Origin: Haloarcula sp. CBA1127
GTDB lineage: Archaea > Halobacteriota > Halobacteria > Halobacteriales > Haloarculaceae
Direction of reading: 5' to 3'
Length of the DNA stretch: 64,000 bases
NCBI RefSeq assembly: GCF_001485575.1
Contig: NZ_BCNB01000006.1
Location: 806,001 to 870,000, forward strand
Below, in pieces: positions 45,972-62,823 of the stretch. Below the pieces are notes generated by a model, which did not search any database, was not told where the DNA came from, and was given only the letters and a program-made list of their open reading frames with translations. The first letter of the stretch is position 1. Each line of letters begins with the position of its first letter. The position numbers and the translations under genes are program-made.

Positions 45972-46625
45972 CTACTCGTCCGAAACTGGCGTCCGTCGAA
46001 GTTCGTCGAGCTGGTCCCGGAGCTTACTCAGCTCTGTCTCTAGTTCTTCGCGGCGGTCGATGAGCGCACTCAACTCCTCCGTGTTGACCGAGTAGTCGTT
46101 GTCCATCGCCACGTCCAGCGCGTCGGTCGTTGCGCTCGTGAGGTCGGACGCGACCCGCAACACCTCGCTTGGCGTTCCGCGGGACTCGTACAGCTCTTGT
46201 TCGCCAGACAGCGGGCTGTAGGTCACCATCGGCGACTCGACGCCGCGGTGGTAGCTCACTGCGTAGCTCGTGTCCGTCACCGGATTGAGGCGGTCGTCCG
46301 CCCGCTCCGTTCGGACGATATTGAACGGCTCGGCCAGCGCGGGAAACGTGTCGGCGAGGTCCCGAAGCCGGTCCGCGGCGGTCACGTCCAGCTGTGCCTC
46401 CACGTCGCCGAAGAACTGCCGGGAGTTGGTGAGGCTAAATGCCACGGTATAAAACACTGACTCGTCGCTGTCTGCCAGATTGCGAACGCGGTCGCGGACC
46501 TCCTCGTGACGGCCCTCGATAGTGAGCTTCTCCAGTTCCTCAAGCAGCGCCCGGACGCCCTCCTCGCGTTCGAGGAACGCCTCGACGATCGCGCCGGGCA
46601 TCTCCTCGCCATCCACGTCCTCCAT
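45972..46625 (-). CDS. Hypothetical haloarchaeal protein with C-terminal coiled coil
   Basis: 217 residues from the ATG at 46625. The N-terminal half is helical and acidic (IVEAFLEREEGVRALLEELEKL), the middle is a mixed alpha/beta region (NIVRTERADDRLNPVTDTSYAVSYHR) and the last 45 residues form a coiled coil (ELSALIDRREELETELSKLRDQLDELRR). Soluble. No family recognised. Codon use is normal for the genome. Confidence 0.72.
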   Translation of the reverse strand: MEDVDGEEMPGAIVEAFLEREEGVRALLEELEKLTIEGRHEEVRDRVRNLADSDESVFYTVAFSLTNSRQFFGDVEAQLDVTAADRLRDLADTFPALAEPFNIVRTERADDRLNPVTDTSYAVSYHRGVESPMVTYSPLSGEQELYESRGTPSEVLRVASDLTSATTDALDVAMDNDYSVNTEELSALIDRREELETELSKLRDQLDELRRTPVSDE

Positions 46626-46939
46626 GGCCCCTCTTTTGCGGGGCCTCGTAAACAGTTTGTCGCTGGCAGCCGCTAATCGGCACGCCTTACAACCAACACA
46701 AAACATATGCCGCACCGCGTGGAGTGATAGCACGTCCGACCCCGGTGGACGGACACTATGACAGGCCAAGGGGGCACTCCCCCGGACGTCTGCTATTGTG
46801 CCGGGTGTGTGATATCAGTATATGCCGTCTTATCGACCAGTAGGTGGTGTTTACTACCTACTTGATGGTTACTAAAGTGTGTACTAGAGTGAGATGTAGA
46901 GCGACGAGACGCCTCGCTGGGGAGTTGGGTTAGAGAGAA
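46626..46939. other. Non-coding gap downstream of the tRNA-Asp genes
   Basis: No gene is supported. The stretch 46790-46920 is AT-rich and holds TATA-like runs. It leads into the tRNA fragment at 46940. Confidence 0.4.
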
Positions 46940-46964
46940 ACGCCCGGAGCGGGATTTGAACCCG
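46940..46964 (-). repeat. 25-bp tRNA-Asp 3'-end fragment, probable att-site remnant
   Basis: The 25 bases at 46940-46964 are identical to 47051-47075 and 47174-47198, which are the 3' ends (T-loop, T-stem part, acceptor strand and discriminator) of the two intact tRNA-Asp genes plus one flanking base. The match stops exactly inside the T-stem. Such a partial 3' copy next to a tRNA gene is the footprint left by integrases that insert at tRNA 3' ends. Confidence 0.7.
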
Positions 46965-46965
46965 G

Positions 46966-47047
46966 GCAAACGCTCGCTGCGCTCGCGTTTGCGTGATTCA
47001 AATCCGCTCATTACGGATTTGCGGCTCACGAGTTTGTTCGCCGCAAA
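46966..47047. other. Three consecutive hairpins between the tRNA fragment and tRNA-Asp
   Basis: GCAAACGC/GCGTTTGC (46966-46973 with 46985-46992), CAAATCCG/CGGATTTG (46999-47006 with 47014-47021) and TTTGCGGC/GCCGCAAA (47018-47025 with 47040-47047) each form a perfect 8-bp stem with loops of 11, 7 and 14 bases. The last two share four bases, so they exclude each other. Function is unknown; terminator, processing signal or remnant of an integrated element are options. Confidence 0.6.
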
Positions 47048-47051
47048 AGTA

Positions 47052-47124
47052 CGCCCGGAGCGGGATTTGAACCCGCGTCACAACCGTGACAGGGTTGTAT
47101 GATGGGCCACTACACCATCCGGGC
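47052..47124 (-). tRNA. tRNA-Asp (anticodon GTC)
   Basis: The reverse strand folds into a standard 73-base cloverleaf: acceptor GCCCGGA with TCCGGGC and discriminator G, a D-arm GATGGTGTAGTGGCCCATC, anticodon stem CAACC/GGTTG with loop CTGTCAC (anticodon GTC at the third to fifth loop base), and T-arm GCGGG TTCAAAT CCCGC. There is no encoded CCA. It is the downstream copy of two identical genes; the other starts at 47247. Confidence 0.96.
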
Positions 47125-47174
47125 AGCCCACGAACACCACCACACGATGCTCGTCAGTTGGGTTGCAATAGGAA

Positions 47175-47247
47175 CGCCCGGAGCGGGATTTGAACCCGCG
47201 TCACAACCGTGACAGGGTTGTATGATGGGCCACTACACCATCCGGGC
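47175..47247 (-). tRNA. tRNA-Asp (anticodon GTC), identical second copy
   Basis: The 73 bases are identical to the tRNA-Asp at 47052-47124, including anticodon GTC and discriminator G. Spacing between copies is 50 bases; the two are probably transcribed together from a promoter beyond 47247. Tandem identical copies suggest recent duplication or repair by gene conversion. Confidence 0.96.
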
Positions 47248-62122: not shown

Positions 62123-62823
62123 TCGAGGTCAGCGACCTGCGCTATCGGTACGGCGATGTCGATGTTCTTGACGGGGTCACGCTGTCGATACCTGATGGTC
62201 AGTACTGTCTGCTCGTCGGCCCGAACGGGAGCGGCAAGACGACGCTCGTCCGGCATCTCAACGCTCTGCTGACGCCCGACACCGGCACGGTCACCGTCGA
62301 CGGGACCGACGTGACGGACGACCCCGTCGTCGCCCGGACACGTATCGGGATGGTGTTCCAGCACCCCCGCGACCAGTTCGTCGCTGCGACCGTGGCGGCT
62401 GACGTGGCCTTCGGTCCGGAAAACCTCGGGCTCGACAGGGCCGAAATCGACCGCCGAGTCGAAACGGCGCTCGACGCTGTCGACCTCGGTGACGCCGCTG
62501 AGAGCCGTATTGACGCCCTCTCCGGCGGCGAACAAGCCCGTGTCGCCATCGCCGGGGCACTCGCCATGGAGCCGGACTATCTCGTGCTTGACGAACCGCT
62601 TGTCGGGCTCGACTGGCCGGCACGGAAGTCAGTGCTTGACCACCTCGACGCGCTGGTCGCTGATGGCACAGGCGTCATCGTCGTCACACACGACCTCCGG
62701 GACCTCCACGAGCGGGCCGACCGCCTCGTCGCGCTGCACGCGGGGGACGTCGTTCTCGACGCGTCGCCAGCCGAAGCGCTTGATGCCCTTCCGGACCTCG
62801 GCATCCGAGACCCGCGATGTTGA
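62119..62823 (+). CDS. bioM: ECF transporter ATPase (BioM)
   Basis: 234 residues. Walker A GPNGSGKTT, LGMVFQHPRDQFVAATVAADVAFGPENLG with the Q-loop, signature LSGGEQARVAI, Walker B YLVLDEP and H-loop VTHDL mark an energy-coupling-factor ATPase. It powers BioY-mediated uptake with the EcfT protein encoded next. The stop and the bioN start overlap by seven bases. Confidence 0.94.
   Translation: MIEVSDLRYRYGDVDVLDGVTLSIPDGQYCLLVGPNGSGKTTLVRHLNALLTPDTGTVTVDGTDVTDDPVVARTRIGMVFQHPRDQFVAATVAADVAFGPENLGLDRAEIDRRVETALDAVDLGDAAESRIDALSGGEQARVAIAGALAMEPDYLVLDEPLVGLDWPARKSVLDHLDALVADGTGVIVVTHDLRDLHERADRLVALHAGDVVLDASPAEALDALPDLGIRDPRC

Follow-up and report, generated by a model that had tools for sequence, protein, structure and literature searches.

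The window, i.e. the whole stretch of 64,000 nucleotides that was analysed, belongs to a Haloarcula chromosome (G000:C6:806001-870000, G000 being the window's genome). On its minus strand it carries two tRNA-Asp(GTC) genes, the first at 47175..47247 and the second at 47052..47124, both called by ARAGORN and both scoring 62.4 bits with Rfam RF00005. By sequence comparison their 73 nt are identical. The pair lies between rpoH (47524 onwards, PF01191) and a gene of 222 aa (45972-46640). The spacer between the two genes (47125..47174, minus strand) is similar, in the leader comparison, to the type C leader described below, with the palindrome GACGAGCA...GTTCGTG. The second tRNA-Asp is followed, 87 bp 3' of its end, by an exact repeat of nt 50-73 of the tRNA (46941-46964); the next base, a T, is also common, which brings the match to 25 bp. 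This segment (46940..46964, minus strand) will be referred to as the tail copy. The preliminary description of this DNA, made from the sequence alone, had given two identical tRNA-Asp genes followed at 87 bases by a 25-bp piece of their 3' end, and every one of these numbers is right. It had also stated that no integrase gene remains in the window, which agrees with the 0 matches that the Phage_integrase profile (PF00589) obtains there. A tRNA-Thr(CGT) called by ARAGORN at 62287-62375 of the window was discarded as probably a false call, the Rfam tRNA model being silent at this place.

The 87 bp are composed, in the direction of the tRNA, of a leader hairpin (L), an inverted T-arm and a second hairpin (H), after which comes the tail copy; the second tRNA-Asp is the anchor of this cassette. 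The leader (47010..47051, minus strand) is of type A, a name which like types B to D was coined in this analysis, and consists of a T-rich start and a predicted hairpin TTTGCGGC-GAACAAACTCGTGA-GCCGCAAA. The inverted T-arm GAGCGGATTTGAA (46997..47009, minus strand), found in the sequence and by the pattern scan, is the reverse complement of the T-arm/acceptor of its own tRNA minus one base. Hairpin H (TCACGCAAACGCGAGCGCAGCGAGCGTTTGCC; 46965..46996, minus strand), delimited by sequence, fold and comparison with other H, is the part common to several tRNA loci. A shortened leader of type D (46901..46940, minus strand) comes after the tail copy and is near-identical to the first leader of the relative G003; to judge from the leader comparison, it is the remnant of a second unit.

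Both L and H are present in the predicted fold of the region. Folded as single-stranded DNA, either strand of the region does better than 200/200 shuffles (z of -4.1 and -5.1), and a 185-nt transcript of tRNA plus unit, folded as RNA, has a z of -5.5 relative to shuffles. In clustered stems, A-C mismatches on the tRNA strand are more numerous than G-U (79:38 for H, 198.5:151 for L), while the folding energies favour the tRNA strand, opposite to this mismatch-based strand test. In the leaders L039-L061 and in the window (47018-47047) GAAC...GTGA are opposed in the leader hairpin, and the loops of H have CGAG...CGAG in common. Tandem G-A mismatches are possible in both hairpins from these motifs.

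Occurrence behind other tRNAs and in relatives

A copy of its own tail is found within 450 nt on the 3' side of 16 of the 43 tRNAs of this genome, and on the 5' side of 1/43; the tail copy at tRNA-Asp is thus not due to chance. Tails of other amino acids, taken as control in this genome, gave 3.1%. The unit follows at least 16/43 tRNAs, each time with the tail of the tRNA concerned. The inverted arm was detected in 10 of the G000 cases, which form an unbiased genome set, and in all ten its T-loop base (TTCAA or TTCGA) is that of its own tRNA. A fully tRNA-specific inverted arm was not retained: in the set chosen by pattern this tendency is weak only, with at least 14/16 matches in 18.5% vs 6.6%.

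We scanned 393 genomes of the phylum for an inverted plus a direct T-arm (GGATTTGAA-N(20-50)-GGTTCAAATCC), with the reversed pattern as control. The pattern is present in 61 genomes, i.e. 61/81 haloarchaeal and 0/312 others, and the reversed control gave 0. When one locus per genome was taken, 29/30 had a tRNA of the same strand on their 5' side, at a distance of 33-276 bp, and 28 had the tail of that tRNA; nearly all haloarchaeal matches of the scan of named genomes are likewise 3' of a tRNA. The limits of the copies were examined in 121 tRNA/copy pairs. Identity starts at the GG of GGTTCAAATCC (tRNA nt 52/53), with a left extension of 0 in 89 pairs, and stops at most 1 nt from the mature 3' end in 73. 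A generic genome repeat was rejected as candidate, GAGCGNAGCGAGC being not enriched in the genome (15 vs 11 for the reversed sequence).

To compare the hairpins we used 202 units (26 isoacceptors, 14 amino acids) and an identity of at least 85%. For H, whose length is 27-52 nt in these units, 105 pairs join tRNAs of different amino acids and 151 the same amino acid, and five dinucleotide-shuffled sets contain 0 pairs across amino acids. The leaders L reach this identity in 4 pairs across amino acids vs 137 pairs. The H sequence ACCCTGGAAGTCGCAG...GACCGTCTTCCTCC is found behind Asp, Ala, Arg, Met, Cys and Gly tRNAs. Near-identical H behind tRNAs for different amino acids indicate that H spreads between tRNA genes. 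No other observation speaks as strongly for a mobile cassette as opposed to a local scar: H and the own tails together make a near-identical body at different targets with ends matched to each target. Most of these loci had been picked with the T-arm pattern, and intact units are therefore over-represented in the set. For hairpins of 30-50 nt, moreover, an identity of 85% could in part reflect ancient common inheritance and gene conversion between tRNA loci instead of insertion.

The frame rpoH / tRNA-Asp / 222-aa gene is kept in all genomes of the genus in which both flanks are readable (in G008 the locus is split over two contigs). After the last tRNA-Asp there is no clear tail copy in G011, G004, G013, G014 and G007, one or two in most relatives, and four in tandem in G009. 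According to the preliminary description, a fragment present with the same flanks in all relatives would have no link to insertions. The locus is not uniform: Haloarcula species differ in having anything between 0 and 4 units, and in two of them PDDEXK_5 genes are inserted at the tRNA-Asp locus, so this objection fails. The spacers combine freely a few leader types (A-D) with a few hairpin types. Between the window and G003, for example, the flanks are ~90% identical and the H block is identical, while the types of L differ. The leader of type B is directly after the tRNA in G011, which has no unit, and after the last tail copy in G018, G015, G021, G003 and G023. This is an empty/filled site polymorphism, seen between species only, which indicates that gain or loss concerns whole [L - inverted arm - H - tail] units and takes place precisely where the tRNA ends, a species-level comparison reading alike for insertion and for precise deletion. 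The composition of the arrays suggests that blocks are exchanged at T-arm boundaries in Haloarcula. The genomes compared, which provide between-species data, contained neither a transposition intermediate nor a sign of recent gain inside a species.

PDDEXK_5 genes and integrases

Genes of the PF11645 family (PDDEXK_5) adjoin a tRNA in 29/30 haloarchaeal loci sampled, and L300-L314 are also among the PF11645 loci examined. They usually begin 37-500 nt 3' of the tRNA on the same strand; the neighbour is most commonly tRNA-Asp, then Pro, Asn, Gly, Lys or Arg. The inserts at the tRNA-Asp arrays of G024 and G029 encode such proteins, and in G024 and G545 a PF11645 gene is found at the tRNA-Asp locus of the window, directly after the unit array. 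In L321/L324 the gene is placed between tRNA-Gly and a tail copy whose boundary is at nt 52, as in the units. The best structural match of the PDDEXK_5 proteins is 2ost (E 1e-8), which we take to be the structure of I-Ssp6803I. The latter, whose gene lies within an intron of tRNA-fMet, is the first PD-(D/E)XK homing endonuclease (PMC1995217). Within the phylum sample, PF11645 proteins above the cut-off occur in haloarchaea only. By these gene positions, haloarchaeal PDDEXK_5 are a family of free-standing predicted nucleases almost always tied to tRNA genes.

The genome of the window has no PF11645 gene despite its many units, and several of the sampled PF11645 loci are without tail copy. By hand count, genomes with the gene have a mean of ~4.0 pattern sites (n=24) vs ~3.1 for those without it (n=26). 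Thus the nuclease is a candidate driver of the units or a co-user of their sites. A nuclease-driven origin of all units was discarded, the number of units showing no clear difference with and without PF11645.

Concerning integrases, a tRNA-Asp tail copy at element distance on the same strand was found in 0 of 96 genomes of the family, and homologues of nine diverse integrases of G000 in 0 of 110 loci, mostly of 8-20 kb each and nearly all carrying a unit. The relatives have no full-size element at the tRNA-Asp site; the only inserts are of the nuclease-gene type, of less than 1 kb. A scan of viral contigs gave no haloarchaeal attP with the tRNA-Asp tail, and no mobilising enzyme linked to the units was found at the unit loci.

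Some observations were made beside these searches. Seven IMG/VR matches to an identical 21-mer were rejected as haloarchaeal attP, as they belong to phages with a bacterial-type integrase. The phage contigs L113-L119 have the identical 21-bp tail GGTTCAAATCCCGCTCCGGGC near an integrase of this type, i.e. a bacterial attP with the same sequence as the haloarchaeal tRNA-Asp tail. Just left of the window, at locus L151 (G000:C6:800270-801659), a tRNA-Thr(GGT) has a Phage_integrase gene that starts within the next few hundred bases, and no hairpin unit. In Bifidobacterium genomes (L212, L216) and closely similar viral contigs, the 3' half of a tRNA forms an almost perfect palindrome, GGATTTGAACC...CCAGAGG...GGTTCAAATCC (loci L166-L168, L172, L173, L176, L212 and L216). 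This palindrome is a self-inverted attP-like site, and our guess is that it comes from tRNA-Met.

Possible working of the cassette and alternatives

Our interpretation starts from what the genomes display: the architecture of the unit, the tRNA-specific tails, the turnover of the arrays and the sharing of H across amino acids. On balance we consider it probable, by a small measure, that the locus holds a non-coding cassette of ~110 bp [L - inverted T-arm - H - tail copy] whose insertion point is precisely the tRNA-Asp 3' end, and that this cassette belongs to a mobile family, haloarchaea-wide, moved in trans. The "truncated third tRNA" would then be the 3' boundary of the hairpin cassette, a part of this best explanation to which we give a similarly guarded preference.

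A recombination or cleavage activity would recognise the nearly universal T-arm (GGTTCAAATCC) and link tRNA and cassette around nt 52, the presumed crossover point. The tRNA would receive nt 52-73 from the cassette, and its original tail would be displaced to the far end of the insert; because the cassette supplies nt 52-73, the tRNA would remain intact. Repeated insertions would produce tandem arrays, and recombination of one T-arm copy with another would delete units or swap L and H blocks. An enzyme acting in trans would move these non-coding cassettes, the candidates being a tyrosine recombinase or the tRNA-linked PDDEXK_5 nucleases. More tentatively, the units may be integron-like non-coding hairpin arrays docking at the T-arm of any tRNA, moved in trans, with ends re-tailored for each tRNA and docking sites common with I-SspI-like nucleases; we regard this wider picture as possible, with the doubt leaning against it.

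The nucleases could also account for the units by break repair of the homing type, if a tRNA-adjacent I-SspI-like PDDEXK_5 cut the T-arm and repair duplicated the tail, the units being nuclease-free mini forms. The almost constant proximity of PF11645 genes to tRNAs, their position directly after the unit at the tRNA-Asp locus of G024 and G545, the boundary at nt 52 in L321/L324 and the homing endonuclease as closest solved structure are all consistent with this, as is the confinement of both genes and units to haloarchaea within the phylum. We nevertheless find it unlikely: G000 has many units and no such gene, the pattern-site means of genomes with and without the gene are hardly apart, several nuclease loci have no tail copy, and the restored tRNA would still be a cuttable target. 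It is more unlikely still that the unit acts at the RNA level, as a structured 3' trailer or as a small RNA released by processing of the tRNA transcript, in the manner of RttR downstream of E. coli tyrV. The folding of the tRNA plus unit transcript favours such a role, and at E. coli tyrTV 19-nt tail copies recur every 178 bp together with an annotated sRNA, RttR. But the T-rich starts of the leaders probably end archaeal tRNA transcription, the unit is absent from many tRNAs and relatives, and the excess of A-C over G-U on the tRNA strand opposes selection on RNA, even if the folding energies favour this strand.

The preliminary description had read the fragment as the footprint of integration at the 3' end of a tRNA, and the site as an old, cleaned-out one or as one where elements still insert in other strains. 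In the first case it would be an attR scar whose integrase-bearing virus or plasmid has since been deleted. Integration does usually leave a copy of the tail downstream of an intact tRNA (PMC8371274; examples at tRNAs in PMC3119063), and one part of this reading stands: the copy was produced by an insertion event at the end of the tRNA, in a locus that is a hotspot for insertions. The 87 bp, however, are not provirus debris but a structured unit. The absence of distant same-strand tail copies from the 96 family genomes, of integrase homologues from the 110 loci and of a haloarchaeal attP with the tRNA-Asp tail from the viral-contig scan, together with a fixed architecture of 60-140 bp behind ~1/3 of the tRNAs of this genome, makes the virus or plasmid scar very unlikely, and we consider it largely refuted. 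We give least credence of all to template switching during replication at the palindromic T-arm, which would create both inverted and direct copies on the spot, no mobile unit being required. T-arms are palindromic, and inverted arms and loops form imperfect palindromes, but template switching explains neither why different genera have near-identical H at tRNAs of different amino acids nor the occurrence in haloarchaea only.

Relation to known systems

The 3' ends of tRNAs are classic docking sites of mobile DNA. The mobile cassette that we favour would add to them a gene-free modular unit which crosses between tRNAs, decorates ~1/3 of the tRNA genes in the fully surveyed genome and is found order-wide. 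Because such units lie behind haloarchaeal tRNAs, partial tRNA copies there are not to be taken as provirus scars. The analysis also presents PDDEXK_5 in haloarchaea as a tRNA-linked family, and raises the questions of the enzyme recognising the T-arm and of the role of the hairpins. No description of these units was found in the open-access full-text literature, the only kind searchable; widespread non-coding hairpin cassettes of ~100 bases behind haloarchaeal tRNAs are apparently undescribed. We see them as a variety of tRNA-tail-duplicating insertions, with a substantial chance that they deserve a class of their own.

The nearest known analogue is the 178-bp repeats (RttR/tpr) of E. coli tyrTV, which, as we checked directly, are tandem repeats 3' of a tRNA, each with a 19-nt copy of the tRNA 3' end. 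They concern one tRNA in one bacterium, whereas the haloarchaeal units are behind 26 isoacceptors across an order, and they have no evident inverted T-arm and exchangeable hairpin, while the haloarchaeal H is common to different tRNAs. Haloarchaeal integrative elements targeting tRNAs (SNJ2-type, proviruses) also insert at the 3' end, restore the tRNA and leave a tail copy; the units differ by their size of ~100 bp, their palindromic structure and their lack of integrase or genes. Integron attC arrays and CALIN resemble the units by their tandem organisation, by a variable hairpin flanked by a pair of inverted core sites and by a fixed anchor nearby. The sequences are nevertheless unrelated, the core of the units being GTTCAAA/GTTCGAA and not GTTRRRY / RYYYAAC, and neither an integron integrase nor coding cassettes were seen in the units. 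The SMR and PATEs of Haloquadratum (PMC3119063) are likewise palindromic, of ~80-110 bp, transposase-free and of enigmatic mobilisation, but they target IS605-type elements and have terminal inverted repeats, whereas the units sit at tRNA tails with tRNA-matched ends. Finally, the haloarchaeal PDDEXK_5 genes, found at the tRNA 3' position that the units also occupy, are of the same Pfam family as I-SspI (I-Ssp6803I); the haloarchaeal genes differ in being free-standing, with no group I intron seen, in encoding predicted nucleases and in being absent from G000.
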